21,415 bases of DNA from a virus. Positions 7,686-21,415 of this stretch are shown here, one piece after another. Every line of letters begins with the position of its first letter. Positions within the stretch are counted from its first letter, which is position 1. The notes beneath the pieces were generated by a model. It was not told where the DNA came from. It saw nothing but the letters and a program-made list of their open reading frames with translations, and searched no databases. The stretch lies in IMG/VR virus record IMGVR_UViG_3300022696_000058, positions 1-21,415 of that record; one strand, written 5' to 3'. Both the position numbers and the translations under genes were made by a program.

Positions 7686-8198
7686 TCAAGATGCTCCATC
7701 AGCAGGCCTCAGTGATGGACGGTAGAAATTAGACGCTGCGCCGGTCGCAGCGCTCGCTCCGCCAATGAACCCGCCAATGATCGCCTTGGACGCGCCCGAC
7801 CGCGCGCGCTTGGCGTTGAACCTGGACATGTCAGCCTGATTTTGCAGTCCACGCTTTTGCAACTCAGTGTTATAGATCGTAGTCAGTTGCTCAAGTTCAG
7901 CCTCAACCGCCGATTGCTCCAACGTATCAAGCGCACTGCCCTCGCTGGACACAACCCCACTTTCCGCCAACGCCGCACGCTGAGAGCCGATGACGCCGCG
8001 CGCCCGCCGCGCCCGCATCCCTTGTTCAGCCGTGCCCTGCTCCGCGACAATCTGCTTATTCTGCCGATCGATCTCTGATTGCCGATCAAGCGTCGACGCC
8101 TGGGCGTTTAGGTTTTCAGCCTCCTGATAGCCTTGCCAAATGCTATCAATGGCGCCCATTGTGTTTCTAATAGCCAGGAGACCCGCAGCGATTCCCAT
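7686..8198 (-). CDS. Internal virion protein, T7 gp14-like, 170 aa
   Basis: A 170-residue protein with a hydrophobic N-terminal helix (MGIAAGLLAIRN), a Gln/Arg/Glu-rich helical middle (about 30-120) and a Gly/Ala-rich near-C-terminal segment (IIGGFIGGASAATGAAS, about 140-157). This pattern matches gp14-type ejection proteins, which in T7 (196 residues) form the outer-membrane part of the ejection channel. I place the start at ATG 8198, which shares one base with the stop of the preceding gene (TGATG) and has GGGAG 8 bases upstream. An in-frame GTG at 8213 sits inside that RBS and is less likely. Its place directly after the gp13-like gene supports the call. Confidence 0.75.
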   Translation of the reverse strand: MGIAAGLLAIRNTMGAIDSIWQGYQEAENLNAQASTLDRQSEIDRQNKQIVAEQGTAEQGMRARRARGVIGSQRAALAESGVVSSEGSALDTLEQSAVEAELEQLTTIYNTELQKRGLQNQADMSRFNAKRARSGASKAIIGGFIGGASAATGAASNFYRPSLRPADGAS

Positions 8199-8599
8199 CA
8201 CGGAAGCTCCCACAAATGCGCCGTATCAAGGCGCCGAATCCACTTAAACCCAAGACGCGAGACCCATCGCGCTTCAGTGCCGTTGCCAATCGCCGTATGC
8301 GTCCACACGTTCGTCAGATGTCTAACCGTCTGCATCCATCCATCGACCGCCCTTGTCAGCGTCAGCGGTCGCGCAGCGAGATCATCCGATATAATAAGGA
8401 GAAACAACCAGCCGTCTTTCGGGATCGCCCCGCCGAAGCCACAGACACGCCCGTGTAATTCCCCCGTCCACATCTGCCCCTTGTTCAAGAGCATGGACAT
8501 CAATCCGAAATTCATATCGCGCCAATCCGATTGAGACGCACGAGGGGTGAACCCCATCGGATCACTGAAACGAAACGGCCTGAGAACAAAATCAGTCAT
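8198..8599 (-). CDS. T7 gp13-like virion assembly protein (DUF2833-type), 133 aa
   Basis: A 133-residue protein rich in Trp and Arg. It lies exactly between tail tubular protein B and the gp14-like protein, as gene 13 does in T7 (138 residues). The middle, with VCGFGGAIPKDGWLFLLI followed by a helix and then GTEARWVSRLGFKWIRRLDT near the end, looks like the degenerate GNAT acetyltransferase fold of the gp13 family. The Arg-Leu-Gly-Phe near the C-terminus is typical of the last GNAT strand. It starts at ATG 8599, overlapping the tail tubular B stop by 8 bases. T7 gp13 is needed for correct assembly of internal proteins; catalytic activity is not established. Confidence 0.75.
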   Translation of the reverse strand: MTDFVLRPFRFSDPMGFTPRASQSDWRDMNFGLMSMLLNKGQMWTGELHGRVCGFGGAIPKDGWLFLLIISDDLAARPLTLTRAVDGWMQTVRHLTNVWTHTAIGNGTEARWVSRLGFKWIRRLDTAHLWELP

Positions 8600-10793
8600 T
8601 TGTGACTATCTTCACAATTGCTGCCAGCACATTAGCAGGAACGGGTTCATCATGGAATAAAAGAAACGTCGCATCTTCCGGGTAGTCTCGTGACATCCCC
8701 TCGACCTTGATTAGCCCGGTATCCAGCGCCTCGGCCGTGCCCATAACCGTCGCAGGATCGCGCCTATCAACGCTTTTAAGCCGGGCCTCGTCCGGCCCAA
8801 CCTGAAGGCCGCGCGTCTCCATGACCCTCAGGTAAAGCTCATACAGCCCTTTCTTGCGCCCCTGGGCAGTCCCCTCACCCGCCCCGGCCTCGAAATACAT
8901 CGGCTGCATGTACGAAGAGATCGGCAGGCCGACATGAACCGTCGACGCCGCGCGCTTGATTGTGATCGATCCGTCTGTCACGGTTGGCCTGTTCGCTGGC
9001 GAGACCTGAATAGCGCCGTCCGCCAGGTACGCGACCGTTTCGCCGTCCAAGTGATCCAGGCCGGAAATCACGGTTGCCGCCGATCCGTCATAAGTCAGGC
9101 CAGCGTCGACGAAGAAAGCATCGTCTCGCGCGTCGCCTTCTTCCCACAAGTCCGCCATCCGCAAAACCCACCGCGTCGACGCATCCTTTTTGACTTGCAA
9201 CCAAACCTCATCGCCGCCCGTGTCAGACCTCGGAATGGTTTCGACTGCCTCAGCCAGCAAACCGCCGCCCAAAACATGGTAATGCCAGGACGCAATCCCC
9301 TCGTTCGGATCGTACAACAGCGATGCCAGGCGCCCATCAGCCAGGACAAACCACATACAGTCGACCGGGGAACCTTGCCACGCCACATCTACAATCGCCG
9401 ATCGAGCAACCCGCGCGACATACTTGGCGAGATCCGCAGCCTTGAAGCTATCTGTCTCGAATGAATAATAAATCTCGCGGACCACAACGCCCGTGCGGTC
9501 GACAAACAACACGCGGTCGTGAGCGCGGACCGCCCGGATATCGCGCGAACCGTATGCCGTCGTTTCAGTGAACTGCACGTTATCCGGCGCAAATGGGTCG
9601 GAGTCGGTGATTTTCTTGATTAGCCCCTCGGCGCCGTCTGTCAGGTCGACTAGGTCACCAGCCGCTACAAGATTATGAGACCGATTCACGAACTCACCAT
9701 TTGTGCGGATCGTGATTCCGTCAGAGTCCAGCACCTCGCTCGCTGTGCGGTCCTTGAAGCTCTCGAAATCATCAGCGCCCGAAAACCAACGCCGCAGCCC
9801 GCCACCGACAGCAAGGCGCCCGCGATAGAATGCCGCGCTCGACGGCCATCCCGCCTCCGTGGACCACGCGCCGAACTCCCAGGTCTTTGTTGGAGTGACC
9901 CCGGTTACCACTTCGGCCGGCATCTCGGTTAGCACATCCGCCGTTGCAGACGTTCCAGACGCCACCGCCGTTATCCGCGCAACGCCATAACCAGCGTGCA
10001 CGAACGCCCACTCAACCGCGCCGTCGCTGCCGACACCCTCCTCGTGCGTAGGCTTGTCCGCGCCCGTCGTTCCCCCAGCAACGGCACGGTAAATTTTTCC
10101 ATCCGATCGGCGAAGGTTATTCGTCGAAACAGACTTGTTCGTTACCCATGGCGCTGTTTTGTTTTTGTTATCATCCCAAATCCGAAACAAAGACCCGACA
10201 TGGTTAGCGGTGAAAATGGACGCCGACGCGGTTATGGTCAGATCGTCGCCAGTCGCGGCAGAGATCGAAACCGTCGTGTCGGTCTTATTCTTTTCGAGGA
10301 ATGGCCCATCTTCCGGCAAGAATTCTTCAAGAGTCCACGACGTTGCGGCTTGCCGCGATAACTTCCGGGGCGATCGATTGCCGCCAAACAACCAGAGAAT
10401 ATCGCCCTCTTGCGCCCACCGAAGCGCGAAAGCCCCGTCCCCGTTTGTGAGATCCGCCGTTGTCCATGGCGAGGCAACCTCAAGCGGCGATGCGCCATCC
10501 TGCACCTGCCCGCCTTGCGTATAAAACCGAATATATTGGTTGCCAAACTCAAGGATATACGCGTCAGTCCGGTTGAACACGAACCGACCGAGCCAGGACC
10601 GCGCCGAGCCCGTCTTTGTCGGCTTGACGAAATACGTGCCCGGTCGCTTGGTTATCGCCCCCTGCCGCAACGGAATAAAGTTTTCAAGACGTCTGCACGA
10701 CCGCTGATAAATCTCAAGATCGATGCGGCTATCTAGGAGACCAGAAACCTCTCCGCCGTTAAAGTTTAGGATTATAGGCGTAGCTCTAGGCAT
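8592..10793 (-). CDS. Tail tubular protein B (T7 gp12-like nozzle), 733 aa
   Basis: The N-terminus has the signature of T7 gp12-type nozzle proteins: a LNFNGGEVSGLLDSR-like start, Y-Q-R-S-C-R-R-L-E-N-F-I-P, then GAITKRPGTYFV near residues 45-56. The C-terminus also fits the family, with a segment resembling the usual final DxPxPxxVLA motif (DEPVPANVLA). Length (733) is near T7 gp12 (794). Six copies form the distal part of the short tail, contacting the adaptor above and the fibres outside. The ATG overlaps the tail tubular A stop by one base (TAATG), so the two are probably translated in a coupled way. Confidence 0.92.
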   Translation of the reverse strand: MPRATPIILNFNGGEVSGLLDSRIDLEIYQRSCRRLENFIPLRQGAITKRPGTYFVKPTKTGSARSWLGRFVFNRTDAYILEFGNQYIRFYTQGGQVQDGASPLEVASPWTTADLTNGDGAFALRWAQEGDILWLFGGNRSPRKLSRQAATSWTLEEFLPEDGPFLEKNKTDTTVSISAATGDDLTITASASIFTANHVGSLFRIWDDNKNKTAPWVTNKSVSTNNLRRSDGKIYRAVAGGTTGADKPTHEEGVGSDGAVEWAFVHAGYGVARITAVASGTSATADVLTEMPAEVVTGVTPTKTWEFGAWSTEAGWPSSAAFYRGRLAVGGGLRRWFSGADDFESFKDRTASEVLDSDGITIRTNGEFVNRSHNLVAAGDLVDLTDGAEGLIKKITDSDPFAPDNVQFTETTAYGSRDIRAVRAHDRVLFVDRTGVVVREIYYSFETDSFKAADLAKYVARVARSAIVDVAWQGSPVDCMWFVLADGRLASLLYDPNEGIASWHYHVLGGGLLAEAVETIPRSDTGGDEVWLQVKKDASTRWVLRMADLWEEGDARDDAFFVDAGLTYDGSAATVISGLDHLDGETVAYLADGAIQVSPANRPTVTDGSITIKRAASTVHVGLPISSYMQPMYFEAGAGEGTAQGRKKGLYELYLRVMETRGLQVGPDEARLKSVDRRDPATVMGTAEALDTGLIKVEGMSRDYPEDATFLLFHDEPVPANVLAAIVKIVTND

Positions 10794-12009: not shown

Positions 12010-12942
12010 TTAGGAAGCGCGATAGCACTGGATTTTGACGACCTTAGCCTCTTCCGTGCGAGTCGTGCCCTGAGTCTGGCAGGCGTACGGCGCCGGGATA
12101 CCCTTGCGGCTATTCAGCTTCAGGATCTCAGCTTCGAGGTCTTCCCAGATGCCGGTGTACATGCCCGACTTCTTCCACATCGGCAATTCAAGAGCCGTCG
12201 CCGTGGCATTGTAGAAGCCAGTCCCGCCGTCGAAGTTGCGCAAGCGCGCCTCGCTGAACGGGATCATGTTCACACCGTAGAGACCCGGCAAACGACCAGT
12301 CTCGATCGGCCGACCATTAACGTAGTCTGCCGACGTGGTGAAGCTTTCGCCAAACAGCGCGTTCCACTCAGCCTCACCGATGATCATGCAAACCGGATCG
12401 GAAGCATCGAAGATGTCCGCTTCGTTGCCCATCAGGATCTCAAGGCCCTTGCGGATCTTCGAATGATTCAGCCCGGTGTCATCCCCGCCGACATCAATTC
12501 CGACAACGTTATCAGTATCGAACGCAGTCGAGTTGCTGGCGGAAGTCTCACCAGTCAAGGCGGTCGAGAAAAATTTGCTGAGGATCTCGTTATCTTCCAA
12601 GCGACGGATAGCGTTAACGGTCGCCTGAACGATTGGCGACTGAACGTCAGTGCGCACCGACCGCTGGTCGAAACGATCAATCCACTTGCCGGCCTCGATG
12701 TGACGCGGGACGATCCAACGCGCATCGGTCGGCAGGGCCATGTTGGGGGTTTCGCCAAACCGCTCAGTGACGATCTGGCCAGCCATTTCGCCGAACTGCT
12801 CGACTACGCGGGCTTCCTTGGCGCCGCTAATCCGATCAGTGTCAACGTGCATCCGCAGCTTGCCGCCCTTATCTTGGAGCAACATCTGCACATTTTCTTT
12901 GAACTCAATCGTTCGAAGTGTCGAAAACCACTCGTTTGACAT
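12010..12942 (-). CDS. Major capsid protein, 310 aa
   Basis: A 310-residue protein in the major-capsid position after the scaffold. The sequence resembles a podovirus capsid family: an N-terminal arm with EFKENVQMLLQDKGGKL, a DTDRISGAKEARVVEQFGEM segment, the D-A-R-W-I-V-P-R-H-I-E-A-G motif near residues 72-84, and a C-terminal region with WEDLEAEILKLN around 260. An HK97-type fold is expected for such proteins. ATG at 12942 has GGAG 8 bases upstream. No programmed frameshift extension like T7 gp10B is evident. This is likely the most abundant virion protein. Confidence 0.88.
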   Translation of the reverse strand: MSNEWFSTLRTIEFKENVQMLLQDKGGKLRMHVDTDRISGAKEARVVEQFGEMAGQIVTERFGETPNMALPTDARWIVPRHIEAGKWIDRFDQRSVRTDVQSPIVQATVNAIRRLEDNEILSKFFSTALTGETSASNSTAFDTDNVVGIDVGGDDTGLNHSKIRKGLEILMGNEADIFDASDPVCMIIGEAEWNALFGESFTTSADYVNGRPIETGRLPGLYGVNMIPFSEARLRNFDGGTGFYNATATALELPMWKKSGMYTGIWEDLEAEILKLNSRKGIPAPYACQTQGTTRTEEAKVVKIQCYRAS

Positions 12943-13966: not shown

Positions 13967-14162
13967 CGGTTTCACTCATGGTTGTGGAATACATCATTTG
14001 GTAGATTCTCATAGCCTCAATCGCCCGCCACGCTTCCGCGTCAGTCTTGGCCGATCGAACAAGCCCGAAAGCGTGGTCCCGCACCGTGGCCAGGATCGCC
14101 GAACCATCAGGCGTCAGCCTCCCCATGGATGTAAGAGCGCGCTGAAACGCTTCTCTAGACAT
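13959..14162 (-). CDS. Small unknown protein between portal and scaffold, 67 aa
   Basis: A 67-residue helical basic protein starting at ATG 14162, which overlaps the portal stop by 8 bases and has a G-rich run just upstream. The longer reading frame back to 14204 lies inside the portal and is unlikely. It begins MSREAFQRALTSMGRLTPDG and ends in a helix with MSETDE at the C-terminus, where it overlaps the scaffold start. No family is recognised. Position suggests a head-assembly accessory, co-translated with portal and scaffold. Confidence 0.65.
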   Translation of the reverse strand: MSREAFQRALTSMGRLTPDGSAILATVRDHAFGLVRSAKTDAEAWRAIEAMRIYQMMYSTTMSETDE

Positions 14163-15810
14163 CCGCGCCCCCCATCTCCGCAGCGTTCTCAGCCTCGACG
14201 CCATCCCTAGCCGCCTTAGCCAGCCCCGGAGCCGCCGCCATCATCTGTTGAGCTTCCGCCGCTTCCGCCTCAGCCTTCAGGATCTCTTCATATTCTTCGG
14301 GAGAGTACAGAAGATCCAACGGTGCGCCGTGCATTTTCCATATTTCTTCCAACGTCTCGCTGCGTTTAATGCGCTTGAGAGCCGCGAAATTGCCGTCCAT
14401 GGCCAGCGCTTGCGCAACCTCAAGGCCGCGCATGATGCCCGAACCGTTCTCAGCACGCTGCATCCGGGCCAGCGGCGAGCGGTACTCAACATCATAAACG
14501 CCGCCGAATTGCTGCACCTCCATAGGCATCTCAGGCATGTCGCCAATTTCATCAAGGCAATCAATCTCACGCTCGATCAATGGCGCAAGGTCCTCCGACT
14601 GCAACCGGCCCATGGTCGGCGCCAACAACGTCGCCTTTTCCGCCGCGCGCTCCAAGACCTCTGTTGCCGTCATGGTCGGCGATTCAACGAGGATCTGAAA
14701 CAGCGTCACCAAGAAAAAGTCATTTACCGATTGAACGCGATCTTGCCGAATATCGAGGCCGATATCGTATCGCCCCGAGTATTCCAACGGCCGCACCTTT
14801 GGGTTGCCAGCGGCATCGAGCCAGCCATAGTTGATCGCGTCAGCCTTGAGAACCGGAGGCATCGACAGGTCATCGTCACTCGCCAGCAGCGGCGGGCGCG
14901 CGGCCCTATCGCCGGCCTTGATCATGCCGTGATCCATGACGTTAAGCATACGGATGTCAGCCAACGCCTGCAACGCGGGAGCGAACCCGTAAGTCTGCCC
15001 ATCGCCGACCGCATAGCGAGAGAACACGTAAGGCATGGTCCGGTATCCACCACGCCGCATGACCTTTTTCTCTCCAGAGCGCATGATCACATGCCAGGAT
15101 GCCCATTGCATCCCCTTCGCGTCCGCCCGCGCCGAGTCACGCCCTTCGTTCAGTTCAACCGCGTGCAGCAAGTCGACATCAATAAACGGATCTTTCGCAC
15201 CTTGCTTGTTTAGCTCAGTCGGGAGAGCATCCTTTCCAAACTCCGCGCGCGCCGCATGGTATTCGAGCTTGTACCGACGATGCACACGCGCAAGTTTGCC
15301 CCACATATCGTATGCAACGTAGAGTTCAGATGTCGGAACGAAGGCATACTTGATCCCACCGCGCCCTAGATCCGGCTCTATGTACTTCGCTCCGTTGCCG
15401 AACGCGCCCAGACTCTCATAAACCTGGTGTTGCATCCCCGCAAAGTTAGCGCGTCCGGAATAGCGATGCTCAAACAGCCGATCCGTCACGTCCTCGAAGA
15501 ACTGTTCCACGGCCCATGACTCGCCCATTTCCCCAGCACGCTGAGGCGCGACCAGGCCATGCCACCGCTGCCCGCGCGGCGTAAGCATGTGTTCGATCGC
15601 CGCCGAGAACTTGGACAACGCGCCGGGAGCAACCGAGTTGTAAAGGTATGTTTGCCCTTCGCCATAGTGCAGAACGGCATCTGTGAACGAGTTAGACGAC
15701 GGAAGAACCAAGCGCGAGCATTCCTCCCACCACTTTTCGGCATGGCGCCTCTTGTTCTCCATGCCTTGCTGGATGCGACAAAGCCTTAGCGCGTCATCTG
15801 CGTATTCCAT
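14155..15810 (-). CDS. Portal protein (T7 gp8-type head-tail connector), 551 aa
   Basis: Family features of podovirus portals: an N-terminal helical region with R-R-H-A-E-K-W-W-E-E-C near 21-31, then LVLPSSNSF, the L-Y-N-S-V-A-P-G-A-L motif near 56-65, and the L-T-P-R-G-Q-R-W-H-G-L motif (about 76-86), all typical of the gp8 family. Length matches T7 gp8 (536). The C-terminal 60 residues are Ala/Glu-rich and helical, as in the crown or barrel. Twelve copies form the vertex where terminase docks and the adaptor attaches. ATG overlaps the preceding stop by one base (TAATG). Confidence 0.93.
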   Translation of the reverse strand: MEYADDALRLCRIQQGMENKRRHAEKWWEECSRLVLPSSNSFTDAVLHYGEGQTYLYNSVAPGALSKFSAAIEHMLTPRGQRWHGLVAPQRAGEMGESWAVEQFFEDVTDRLFEHRYSGRANFAGMQHQVYESLGAFGNGAKYIEPDLGRGGIKYAFVPTSELYVAYDMWGKLARVHRRYKLEYHAARAEFGKDALPTELNKQGAKDPFIDVDLLHAVELNEGRDSARADAKGMQWASWHVIMRSGEKKVMRRGGYRTMPYVFSRYAVGDGQTYGFAPALQALADIRMLNVMDHGMIKAGDRAARPPLLASDDDLSMPPVLKADAINYGWLDAAGNPKVRPLEYSGRYDIGLDIRQDRVQSVNDFFLVTLFQILVESPTMTATEVLERAAEKATLLAPTMGRLQSEDLAPLIEREIDCLDEIGDMPEMPMEVQQFGGVYDVEYRSPLARMQRAENGSGIMRGLEVAQALAMDGNFAALKRIKRSETLEEIWKMHGAPLDLLYSPEEYEEILKAEAEAAEAQQMMAAAPGLAKAARDGVEAENAAEMGGADV

Positions 15811-16242: not shown

Positions 16243-16612
16243 GCGCACCCGCCGGCCATTCGTCGCAAGGGTCATCCTCTTGAACCAATTTGGAAGCCTT
16301 ATATTTGAACCACGCCAAAAGATGCGGGAGCTTTCCAACCTCGAACTTAGAACACGGAGAATAAGAAAGATCAGAATAAACCTTATATTCGCGACCGTTA
16401 ACGCAGCAAGTCACAATTAACCGGTATATGTTCCTATTAACCAAGCGTAAACAATCGAATCTCGCGCTGTCAATTGTCGCTAACGACTGCCGAAGAAGCG
16501 ATTGCTTTATCGTGCTCGAAACAGCGTCTTTGAACAGCCATTCAACAAAATGTGAATGATCAGAGAACTTACCGGCACCGTTTTCTTCTAGCCAATACTC
16601 AACTGAACCCAT
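16229..16612 (-). CDS. Unknown AT-rich gene inserted behind the terminase, 127 aa
   Basis: A 127-residue protein of unknown family starting at ATG 16612, 12 bases inside the end of the terminase gene. It has several cysteines (near 54, 70, 71, 86 and 114), a tyrosine-rich middle, and ends in PAGAHGFS. The terminase also ends in EGAHGFS, because both gene junctions lie on a 15-bp direct repeat. A hand count of 16261-16560 gives 130 G+C in 300 bases (43%), well below the portal gene beside it. Base composition and repeat suggest a recent insertion, like a moron. No domain is recognised. Confidence 0.65.
   Translation of the reverse strand: MGSVEYWLEENGAGKFSDHSHFVEWLFKDAVSSTIKQSLLRQSLATIDSARFDCLRLVNRNIYRLIVTCCVNGREYKVYSDLSYSPCSKFEVGKLPHLLAWFKYKASKLVQEDDPCDEWPAGAHGFS
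16235..16249. repeat. Direct repeat, copy 1 (end of the AT-rich gene)
   Basis: GAACCCATGCGCACC on the plus strand, identical to 16605-16619. On the minus strand it carries the last Gly-Ala-His-Gly-Phe codons of the AT-rich gene and the ATG of the holin candidate. Confidence 0.9.
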
Positions 16613-18104
16613 GCGCACCTTCCGGAATAACGTGGCCACGCCGCCGCCCGCCCAACATTGCTTGCCCCTCGGCCCCCGTGCGGAAGGCGTCGGCCGGATT
16701 GCTGCTCGCATCATGGCGAGGGTGATTCTTAAACACGCCGAGCTTATCATCCCAGTCCTTGCGATAGCTGCGCAACGCTGCGACACCTTCCGAACAGTGC
16801 TCTTCGTCAAAATAGCAGATTGAAAGAACGCGCCGGACGTCCTCGATACCCGCCAGGACACTCGTGTTGCGTTTCACAATATCAACGCGGTAGCCGAGAC
16901 CCGCCATTATGTCCGCGCGCTTCCGGCCTCGCTCATCCAACACGCGCGCGTTCCCATCGTGCGGCCATAGGTGCCGGCCATAGACGAGCCCCCGGCGCCG
17001 CTGAACATCTTGTAAATATTGAGCATAATGCGCCAACCCTTCGCCCGTGTTTTTGTAAAAATCTATCAAGTGCCAATTCGGCCCGACGACCTGCAAAAAC
17101 CAAATGCACATTTCATCGTTGAGGCCGAGATCCCATAGTGTGTGTACTGGCGTCCCGTCCGCAACGGGCAGTGACCGAACGCGCTTGTCCTCGTCAATGC
17201 GCGCGAACTGTGTCGCATAATAGGCGCCTTCGACGCTGGCGTGAAACGCCTCATCCGCCGTCGACGGGAATTCGCGCATCATATCATCTTGCTGCGTCTG
17301 TTTCTTTTTCGCGTACCAAGCAATTTGCGCGTCGGTGAGATCGATCCCACCGCTAGCAAGCTTCGCCCTATATTCGGCGATGGCCTTAGAAACAACGCCA
17401 TCGCTTTCAATCGCATATGTTGGGTTTTGATGCCACCCGAAGAAAAAGAATTTCCAATCTAGTGGCGTTAGCTTCGCGCCCGATCGGGCAGCAATCTGAG
17501 CATCTTGACACATCTCGAAGAACCGCCCCTCGCGCCCCTCCGCAGTGCTCTCGATAAATCCGACTTGCCCCGCCTCAATCGTATTAAGCGCACCCGTCAC
17601 GATCTCTTGCGCCTTGCCGGGGTCTTTAGCGCACACCTTACCGAACTCGGATATGTGCAAATACTGAAACGTTCCAGACCGCAGCGACGTCCCGACCTGG
17701 ATAGACGAGCCGTTAGAAAACTGAAGCTTCCGCGCGCTATCCTGCGTAGCCGCCCTCAACGCTTTTATCGCATCCGGGAGATTGTCATAAGCAAACTTCA
17801 CGATATTCCCAAAGATATCCTCCGCAGCCTCGCGGGTATGCGCGATCGTGCCGCACCGCGTGTTATCACGGAACAGCGCCGCGTCTAGCATGAAGATTTG
17901 AATGAACGTCGAAAACCCAAGTTGGCGAGCTTTGAGGATAATATTGAGGTAGTGCATCTCATCGAATAACCGTTCCTGTGCCCAGTTTAGGCGGAACGGA
18001 ACAACGGCACCGCTTTTATCTCGGATCTTGTAAAGGCTTTGTATCCGCCGCTTGCGATCACCCAGGATTGATTCCAGGGCAGAGACTTGCTCGGCAGCCT
18101 TCAT
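16599..18104 (-). CDS. terL: Terminase large subunit, 501 aa
   Basis: DNA-packaging motor and nuclease. Visible elements: a Walker A variant K-A-R-Q-L-G-F-S-T at 58-66 in the form found in many phage terminases; a Walker B-like F-Q-Y-L-H-I-S-E-F-G ending near 155 with Glu153; a coupling motif E-S-T-A-E-G at 185-190; and a C-terminal RNase-H-type nuclease with D325 in W-D-L-G-L-N-D, D383 in P-H-D-G, and D472 in the terminal P-A-D-A-F-R segment. Length is usual. ATG at 18104 overlaps the small-subunit stop by 4 bases (ATGA). It cuts concatemeric DNA and pumps it into the procapsid through the portal. Confidence 0.93.
   Translation of the reverse strand: MKAAEQVSALESILGDRKRRIQSLYKIRDKSGAVVPFRLNWAQERLFDEMHYLNIILKARQLGFSTFIQIFMLDAALFRDNTRCGTIAHTREAAEDIFGNIVKFAYDNLPDAIKALRAATQDSARKLQFSNGSSIQVGTSLRSGTFQYLHISEFGKVCAKDPGKAQEIVTGALNTIEAGQVGFIESTAEGREGRFFEMCQDAQIAARSGAKLTPLDWKFFFFGWHQNPTYAIESDGVVSKAIAEYRAKLASGGIDLTDAQIAWYAKKKQTQQDDMMREFPSTADEAFHASVEGAYYATQFARIDEDKRVRSLPVADGTPVHTLWDLGLNDEMCIWFLQVVGPNWHLIDFYKNTGEGLAHYAQYLQDVQRRRGLVYGRHLWPHDGNARVLDERGRKRADIMAGLGYRVDIVKRNTSVLAGIEDVRRVLSICYFDEEHCSEGVAALRSYRKDWDDKLGVFKNHPRHDASSNPADAFRTGAEGQAMLGGRRRGHVIPEGAHGFS
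16605..16619. repeat. Direct repeat, copy 2 (end of the terminase gene)
   Basis: GAACCCATGCGCACC on the plus strand, identical to 16235-16249. On the minus strand it carries the last codons of the large terminase and the ATG of the AT-rich gene. Spacing between copies is 370 bases. Confidence 0.9.
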
Positions 18105-19383: not shown

Positions 19384-19411
19384 TTGACACCATCCCCGCC
19401 GCGTGTATAAT
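19384..19411 (+). promoter_or_regulatory. Strong rightward early promoter
   Basis: Perfect -35 TTGACA (19384-19389) and perfect -10 TATAAT (19406-19411) with a 16-base spacer. Transcription should start near 19418, giving a leader of about 95 bases before the first early gene. A host sigma70-type RNA polymerase would recognise it without phage factors, as expected for immediate-early genes. Confidence 0.88.
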
Positions 19412-19770: not shown

Positions 19771-19803
19771 AGTACTTTTCAACCCACGATAGGAGCAAAG
19801 ACG

Positions 19804-20019
19804 ATGAAAACCGAATATTTTAAATTCCTTAACACAAGGTTCTATTTAGAACCAAACTGCGATTTCGATGAAAACGGGAACATAAAACAAATCGGCGGAT
19901 ATTGGGCTGGTCTTATCAAAGACAGCCACGAACTGAGCGGCCGTCTCTTTGAGACACGCGAACGGGCAATGCAAGCCATGATGGATTTTGCCAGCGCACT
20001 AATGCACGCCGACGCATAG
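19804..20019 (+). CDS. Hypothetical protein, 71 aa
   Basis: A 71-residue acidic protein with an aromatic-rich first half (MKTEYFKFLNTRFYLEPNC, then G-G-Y-W-A-G) and a C-terminal helix (about 46-70) with R-E-R-A-M-Q-A-M-M-D-F. It could be a small alpha/beta protein. The start is well supported by AGGAGCAAAGACG before the ATG, a module seen before two other genes. The DNA is more AT-rich than the late operon. No function can be given. Confidence 0.72.
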   Translation: MKTEYFKFLNTRFYLEPNCDFDENGNIKQIGGYWAGLIKDSHELSGRLFETRERAMQAMMDFASALMHADA

Positions 20020-20092: not shown

Positions 20093-20320
20093 ATGCCAAT
20101 AAACCCACTCCCCCAATTTCTCCGCGATGCCCAACTTTCACAAGTCGGGCTCGCCCGCCGGCTCCAAGACATGGGGCTAGAATGCACACCCGCTAAGGTC
20201 AACCGCTGGTATCACGCCAGCAAGATCATTAGCACCGATCACCTGCTAGGATGCATGGCCGCGCGATGGCCGCAACAGCTCGGCGCGATGGTCCGAGGCA
20301 TCATTGATGACCCAAATTGA
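20093..20320 (+). CDS. Small helix-turn-helix protein, putative regulator, 75 aa
   Basis: A 75-residue protein starting MPINPLPQFLRDAQLSQ. Residues about 8-45 look like a Cro/CI-type helix-turn-helix: L-S-Q-V-G-L-A-R-R-L as the first helix, then a loop, then T-P-A-K-V-N-R-W-Y as a recognition helix. No dimerisation domain follows, as in small Cro-like proteins. The RBS is weak (AGAAGG about 12 bases upstream of ATG 20093). A perfect dyad just upstream is a natural candidate site for autoregulation. Whether it acts as repressor or activator is unknown, and no integrase or lysogeny gene is seen here. Confidence 0.65.
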   Translation: MPINPLPQFLRDAQLSQVGLARRLQDMGLECTPAKVNRWYHASKIISTDHLLGCMAARWPQQLGAMVRGIIDDPN

Positions 20321-20447
20321 ATTTCTGATAATCCTTTTCGGCATCGTCGCGCGACACGAAAGCGCGATCGTCGCCTACCGCGAAATTATCGAGGAACAGA
20401 ACCGAGTCATCGCCATGATGATTCAGAGACAGGAGAGCATGGAATGA
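20307..20447 (+). CDS. Short unknown protein, 46 aa
   Basis: A 46-codon ORF starting at ATG 20307, 14 bases inside the helix-turn-helix gene and ending with ATGA overlap into the next gene. It has a short hydrophobic start (F-L-I-I-L-F-G-I-V-A, residues 5-14) followed by a long amphipathic helix rich in Glu, Arg, Gln and Met. It may be a single-pass membrane protein or a small coiled-coil protein. It fills the gap exactly and is probably translated by coupling; no strong RBS is visible. Confidence 0.55.
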   Translation: MTQIEFLIILFGIVARHESAIVAYREIIEEQNRVIAMMIQRQESME

Positions 20448-20671
20448 TTAGCAGAGACAATCTAAACACATTCTGGGTTAACACATCCGAAGGCGTTTTG
20501 ATCCTAAACGGCACGCCATTCCGGATCGAGTATCGCGGCGATTCTGACGCCCCGTTTCACGTATACCGCGATTCGAACTTGATCCACAAAGAAACGGCTC
20601 TTTGCCTTGCCAAAGGGTACGCAATCGACCGAGTGTTAGAGCTTGTCGAGATGGGAATCGTTGTTGTTTAG
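20444..20671 (+). CDS. Hypothetical protein, 75 aa
   Basis: A 75-residue soluble protein starting at ATG 20444 with AGGAGAG about 7 bases upstream. It looks like a small beta domain (residues about 8-48 with alternating hydrophobics, e.g. V-L-I-L-N-G-T-P-F-R-I-E-Y) followed by a helix (50-70) and a hydrophobic end G-I-V-V-V. It overlaps the preceding ORF by 4 bases. No family is recognised. Its place in the early operon suggests an infection-phase accessory. Confidence 0.68.
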   Translation: MISRDNLNTFWVNTSEGVLILNGTPFRIEYRGDSDAPFHVYRDSNLIHKETALCLAKGYAIDRVLELVEMGIVVV

Positions 20672-20811: not shown

Positions 20812-20989
20812 ACTCGTGAAATTCATTCCCCCACTAATCCGAGAATCAGAGCACGAATGGCTCGAAGCGGAACAACGACGGCGAGGCATCGTCTGCGAAG
20901 TGTATTCACATTGGACCCTTGAAATTCTACGGGCCACCAGGGACAGGAGCGAAGACGATGAAATTCGGCACGACGGGCCGGCCATTTAA
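20804..20989 (+). CDS. Short unknown charged protein, 61 aa
   Basis: A 61-residue protein starting at ATG 20804 with a GGGGTAA site about 7 bases upstream. It is strongly charged: an acidic helix (R-E-S-E-H-E-W-L-E-A-E-Q-R-R-R), a middle with C-E-V-Y-S-H-W, and an acidic end S-E-D-D-E-I-R. It reads through the RBS module and the first codons of the next gene, overlapping it by 32 bases. The longer frame back to 20708 is inside the preceding gene. Function unknown. Confidence 0.58.
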   Translation: MGELVKFIPPLIRESEHEWLEAEQRRRGIVCEVYSHWTLEILRATRDRSEDDEIRHDGPAI

Positions 20990-21170
20990 CTACGTTTGGT
21001 GCGAGGCGTCTCGCATCGTCCCCCGCAATCGCGTTTGGGATGGCATGAGAGCCGCTGAGAAGGACGCGCAGCGCGTTTTTCGATATCAGGTACCATCGAT
21101 CGCCCACACGGCGAAATGGTTGCCAGGCGGCCTCGCAAAATGCACCGTCAGGATAACGAGGATCAAATAA
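20958..21170 (+). CDS. Hypothetical basic protein, 70 aa
   Basis: A 70-residue basic protein starting at ATG 20958 after AGGAGCGAAGACG, the shared start module. It begins M-K-F-G-T-T-G-R-P-F-N-Y-V-W-C-E and ends in R-I-T-R-I-K. Cysteines lie near residues 15 and 63. It overlaps the preceding gene by 32 bases and is followed immediately by the next ATG. No family is recognised. The earlier in-frame ATG at 20919 lacks an RBS. Confidence 0.65.
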   Translation: MKFGTTGRPFNYVWCEASRIVPRNRVWDGMRAAEKDAQRVFRYQVPSIAHTAKWLPGGLAKCTVRITRIK

Positions 21171-21329
21171 ATGTGCGCATTGCCGCACGATAAAGCGGCC
21201 GAACAACCAAATACGGACTCGAGGCCGGCCTGCTATCTTCGGTCCTGGGCCATGCTCAAGATTGAGGAATGCACCATTTCCGGCTGCCAATGCAAACAGG
21301 AGAAAGACGATGAAATACAGCGAAATTAA
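21171..21329 (+). CDS. Cysteine-rich short protein, 52 aa
   Basis: A 52-codon ORF beginning directly after the preceding stop (TAA ATG). A GAGG site lies about 9 bases upstream. It contains five cysteines, including E-E-C-T-I-S-G-C-Q-C near the end, which might bind zinc, although the spacing is not a classical finger. Its end reads through the RBS module and overlaps the MaoC-like gene by 20 bases. Function unknown. Confidence 0.5.
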   Translation: MCALPHDKAAEQPNTDSRPACYLRSWAMLKIEECTISGCQCKQEKDDEIQRN

Positions 21330-21415
21330 AATCGGGATGCGAGCGGAAGTCAATTACATGGTTACTCCCGCCGACATTAGCGAATTCATGGTGATCTCGA
21401 AAGACCGCAACCCGA
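21310..21415 (+). CDS. Partial MaoC/PhaJ-like (R)-enoyl-CoA hydratase-family protein
   Basis: Only 35 codons are in the window; the gene runs off the right edge. The visible part (I-K-I-G-M, then V-T-P-A-D-I-S-E-F, then I-S-K-D-R-N-P) matches the N-terminus of MaoC-like hydratases, which have a G-x-x-x-x motif, T-x-x-D-I-x-x-F and S-x-D-x-N-P-x-H. Asp32 would be the catalytic Asp; the matching His would lie just beyond the edge. These enzymes hydrate trans-2-enoyl-CoA in fatty-acid or polyhydroxyalkanoate metabolism. ATG at 21310 has AGGAG 7 bases upstream. The call rests on a short segment. Confidence 0.6.
   Translation, partial: MKYSEIKIGMRAEVNYMVTPADISEFMVISKDRNP

Follow-up and report, generated by a model that had tools for sequence, protein, structure and literature searches.

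A candidate PhaJ-type (R)-specific enoyl-CoA hydratase gene at the right edge of a podovirus-like phage contig

The IMG/VR record IMGVR_UViG_3300022696_000058, whose 21,415 bases make up the whole of the window analyzed here, ends within an open reading frame whose 35 visible residues resemble, in their sequence, the N-terminus of MaoC/PhaJ-type hydratases beyond chance. This 5' end of a gene (21310..21415, plus strand) comprises 35 codons plus one base and is cut by the contig end. It probably belongs to a bacteria-derived auxiliary metabolic gene of the phage that encodes a stand-alone PhaJ-type (R)-specific enoyl-CoA hydratase. Family membership is supported for the visible part of the gene, which amounts to about a quarter of the predicted protein, with the other three quarters lying beyond the contig end. 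Its most likely function, as far as these residues indicate, is (R)-specific enoyl-CoA hydration, carried out by the product of an accessory phage gene.

The frame runs from the ATG at 21310 to position 21415 without a stop codon and encodes the residues MKYSEIKIGMRAEVNYMVTPADISEFMVISKDRNP. Asp32, within the motif SKDRNP, aligns with the catalytic Asp of the Aeromonas caviae PhaJ protein (Asp31 when the initiator Met is not counted), and the spacing from the start to this Asp is identical in the two proteins. The single base of codon 36 is an A, which would fit Ile, the residue most often present here in viral MaoC proteins. Searches for an overlapping contig that extends past 21415 and for near-identical phage DNA found neither, and a 51-aa frame used as a query for such an extension had no match. 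The only match to an SKDRNP-x-H pattern (L205) was discarded, as it falls within a long, unrelated ORF that on visual inspection looks like a DNA polymerase.

The sequence-only reading had claimed a MaoC/PhaJ-type N-terminus with an S-x-D-x-N-P motif and had proposed a Pfam profile search as a check on it. MaoC (PF01575) is the sole Pfam-A match to the fragment, pairing residues 6-35 with profile positions 6-35, but its score (E = 0.084) is below the cut-off because the gene is cut by the contig end, and it is no better than the values obtained for unrelated ORFs of the window (E = 0.013-0.04). Further comparisons bear the claim out. The one NCBIfam match is to the hydratase domain of PRK08190 (E = 3.2e-4, positions 10-43), and the best phmmer match in the PDB is the (R)-specific enoyl-CoA hydratase 5CPG (E = 0.032), on which residues 2-35 align with 7-40 gaplessly. 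MaoC proteins of alphaproteobacterial, beta/gammaproteobacterial, and viral loci were used to build an HMM that covers the beginning of the domain. Against this HMM the fragment reaches 24.1 bits, or 25.5 bits when only the bacterial sequences are used, and the maximum among 20,000 shuffles is 15.4 bits. Of 6,072 ORF N-termini compared with the same HMM, MaoC ORFs alone score as high as the fragment, and the best unrelated one reaches 10.7 bits.

Plain searches with the 35 residues recover the same family in the same register. Matches at E <= 1 occur in 75 of 289 alphaproteobacterial genomes, nearly all of them in register 3/4-35, and 19 of the 20 best loci retrieved proved to be MaoC ORFs (HMM 1e-34 to 1e-54) with an intact D-x-N-P-x-H motif. 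Gammaproteobacterial matches fall in this register too and include the best match of all (E = 0.0014, 47% identity). A tblastn search of the fragment against phages returned nothing. If the gene instead encoded an unrelated small phage protein that resembles MaoC by chance, then the Pfam value and that of the PHROG family phrog_20286 (E = 0.08, a match rejected as chance) would be what is expected, since both are at chance level and unrelated ORFs in the window give Pfam E values of 0.01-0.04. This explanation is extremely unlikely given the HMM and shuffle test, the NCBIfam score, and the return of MaoC ORFs, aligned in register, from the reciprocal comparison.

The predicted hydratase shares the F-x3-S-x-D-x-N-P motif with A. 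caviae PhaJ and 5CPG. It differs from them in having Lys in place of Gly or Glu before the Asp, and it lies in a phage operon rather than in a bacterial locus. PRK08190, the bifunctional enoyl-CoA hydratase/phosphate acetyltransferase whose N-terminal hydratase domain is the best NCBIfam match, is a two-domain protein of 467 residues with a C-terminal phosphate acetyltransferase, whereas the phage fragment comprises 35 residues. The S-K-D that replaces the usual S-G-D is atypical for the family, although the A. caviae enzyme itself has S-E-D, and phages often repurpose enzymes. It is conceivable, therefore, that the protein is a MaoC-descended hotdog protein that has lost catalysis and binds, for example, acyl-CoA or a host protein. 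We consider this very unlikely, however, as the active-site motif retains its Asp, Asn, and Pro.

The gene lies at the far end of a contig that is otherwise organized as a podovirus-like phage. From base 1 to about 18,860, PHROG matches identify a late module encoded entirely on the minus strand that includes the terminase large subunit (16599..18104, also matched by relatives), the portal or head-tail connector (14155..15810; phrog_332, E = 4e-103), the major capsid protein (12010..12942; phrog_3437, E = 7e-43), and a podovirus-type tail protein (8592..10793; phrog_376, E = 2e-173). A 133-aa ORF without a Pfam match (8198-8599, minus strand) sits among these virion genes, at a position that corresponds to that of the GNAT acetyltransferase which follows the tail stabilization protein in the annotation of MW202898.

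Divergent from this module, a run of short rightward ORFs starts at 19.4 kb. A promoter-like site, TTGACA-16-TATAAT (19384..19411, plus strand), matches the sigma-70 consensus at 12 of 12 positions, a consensus match only, and is followed by eight or more ORFs of 42-76 aa; the frame from 21310 closes the series. Among these plus-strand ORFs are orphans of 71 aa (19804..20019), 75 aa (20444..20671), and 70 aa (20958..21170), together with a 75-aa ORF (20093..20320) that is weakly like DUF6471 (Pfam E = 0.013, below the cut-off) and possibly a DNA-binding protein. The 52-aa orphan directly upstream of the putative hydratase gene (21171..21329, plus strand) has no Pfam or PHROG match, and its ATG directly follows the stop codon of the previous ORF. 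None of the operon ORFs has a convincing Pfam match, nor do those that were scanned have a convincing PHROG match. The sequence-only reading placed the gene in an early phage operon. The tightly packed rightward operon behind a perfect sigma-70 consensus agrees with this description, and we infer the early timing itself from the promoter and the divergence from the late genes.

Two features argue strongly, if not conclusively, that the candidate hydratase gene belongs to the phage's own operon: a ribosome-binding leader that recurs at other genes of the operon and an overlap of 20 nt with the preceding 52-aa ORF. The leader at this gene, AGGAGAAAGACGATG (21298..21312, plus strand), has the start codon as its last three bases and reads AGGAG-AAAGACG-ATG. 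The pattern AGGAG-N0-3-AAGACGATG has exactly three matches in the window, all of them where rightward ORFs start (19804, 20958, and 21310), and none in 100 shuffled windows. The other two copies, at 19791-19806 and 20945-20960, belong to the 71-aa and 70-aa orphans, so that the hydratase gene has AGGAG-AAGACGATG in common with two operon genes 1.5 and 0.35 kb upstream. An assembly chimera or prophage boundary that joins a bacterial phaJ or maoC gene to the phage would make the right end of the contig host DNA, and homologues are indeed common in bacteria. Such an artifact does occur in the collection: another viral contig (L113, IMGVR_UViG_3300009944_000117) breaks off within a PhaJ gene of Pseudomonas-like type. 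In the present contig this origin is improbable, because the start codon shares its leader of 15-16 bases with two upstream operon genes, a leader absent elsewhere in the window, and because of the overlap with the 52-aa ORF. The window also contains no tRNA, and no integrase-like gene was seen near its right end.

The PhaJ gene of L113 lies beside an apparent host-type hydrolase. We rejected it as viral and regard it as a host-flank gene; the end of that contig is probably the host flank of a prophage and as such a trap for surveys of auxiliary genes.

The putative hydratase gene is an accessory gene, since some 100 related phages and prophages have no MaoC homologue beside their terminase or portal genes. 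Such a gene was absent from 12 records of related phages, for which HATV-2 served as the positive control, and from about 99 related terminase/portal loci other than that of HATV-2, which was included as a MaoC carrier. This absence, which leaves no sign of purifying selection on the gene in the lineage, counts against the preferred reading. The operon proteins of the window that were tested against these roughly 99 loci likewise lack recognizable homologues there, and scans of viral contigs with the portal and capsid proteins yielded no relatives. The operon region is specific to this lineage. An enzyme of this kind had been called unexpected in an early phage region, and its absence from these relatives fits that view; the existence of MaoC genes in other viruses, such as the HATV-2 gene discussed in PMC8651126, does not. 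Viral MaoC genes are thus already known, and the one described here is a further, incomplete example.

If the predicted gene is complete beyond the contig end, then it would encode a protein of about 130-160 residues that is expressed together with the small genes of the rightward operon and forms a hotdog dimer. Asp32 and the predicted His of the D-x-N-P-x-H motif would activate a water molecule for addition to trans-2-enoyl-CoA, which would yield (R)-3-hydroxyacyl-CoA. Host fatty-acid intermediates could in this way be diverted to (R)-3-hydroxyacyl groups that serve the acylation of surface glycans, the turnover of lipids, or a storage polymer. The sequence-only reading had mentioned polyhydroxyalkanoate metabolism, but nothing in our analysis points specifically to that role. 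Phage-borne genes with a potential role in polyhydroxyalkanoate synthesis have been published and include phaC, fadJ, and phbB, whereas phaJ is not listed in the abstract of that paper (PMC12013262). The "MAOC" of PMC12376549 is mineral-associated organic carbon and not MaoC. More tentatively, a podovirus-like phage may make an (R)-enoyl-CoA hydratase along with its first small regulatory proteins and thereby redirect host acyl-CoA early in infection and, in contrast to the other viral MaoC genes, outside any surface-glycan cluster. Only a small number of phage genes impinge on host fatty-acid or polymer metabolism, and these are known mostly from database matches. A PhaJ-type hydratase that stands alone within a compact operon of orphan genes would lend itself readily to an enzyme assay.

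Complete MaoC genes that encode the D-x-N-P-x-H motif are present in other viruses. A tblastn search with PhaJ across 50,697 phage records gave HATV-2 as the sole annotated case, plus three small unannotated records. In the tailed haloarchaeal virus HATV-2 (PMC8651126), the gene for the MaoC-like dehydratase gp99 resembles the present candidate in standing alone amid small ORFs that lack an assigned function. It differs in its archaeal host, its 27% identity to PhaJ4, and the replacement of N-P-x-H by N-D-V-H. A motif scan of IMG/VR yielded 23 contigs, and true MaoC genes are present in freshwater contigs of the L097/L098 type and in L102, L107, and L114, while L099, L103, and L108 were rejected as chance motif matches.

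The neighborhoods of these viral genes point to a specific form of the preferred hydratase reading. Where enough flanking sequence is present in the L097/L098 type and L102, a hexapeptide acyltransferase gene either overlaps the MaoC gene or precedes it, usually with a DegT sugar aminotransferase nearby. The conserved viral cassette has the order DegT aminotransferase, hexapeptide acyltransferase, overlapping MaoC hydratase, and then glycosyltransferase, and it occurs in a set of freshwater viral contigs (L097, L098, L100, L104-L106, L109, L111, L112, and L115-L119). This arrangement suggests phage-made 3-hydroxyacyl sugars. Because most complete viral MaoC genes adjoin sugar acyltransferases, their usual role appears to be the supply of acyl donors to surface glycans rather than polyhydroxyalkanoate metabolism. 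Viruses may commonly employ MaoC proteins to provide 3-hydroxyacyl donors for sugar acylation.

By analogy, the gene at 21310 might encode a MaoC-like hotdog protein for modification of surface glycans (O-antigen or capsule), with an (R)-3-hydroxyacyl-CoA such as 3-hydroxybutyryl-CoA as the donor for a sugar acyltransferase encoded beyond the contig end. The cassettes described above favor this role, as do the MaoC gene of L114, which lies within a DegT/glycan cluster, and that of the independent phage-like contig L204. We nevertheless hold it to be rather unlikely. The visible operon has no recognized glycan gene, and the fragment is no closer to viral MaoC proteins than to bacterial PhaJ. 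The freshwater phage contigs (L097-L119) and L204 resemble the present one in carrying a MaoC-fold gene with D-x-N-P-x-H in a phage-like context, but they do so in surface-glycan clusters with hexapeptide acyltransferases, none of which was seen in the window. In the 2 kb that precede 21310, Pfam and PHROG recognized no gene related to lipids, polymers, or glycans, a result that we also count against the broader reading of the gene as a PhaJ-type hydratase. In L204 (8995-10105, minus strand) the MaoC gene occurs directly beside a PglD-type hexapeptide acyltransferase gene, and this pair is possibly a surface-glycan conversion cassette.
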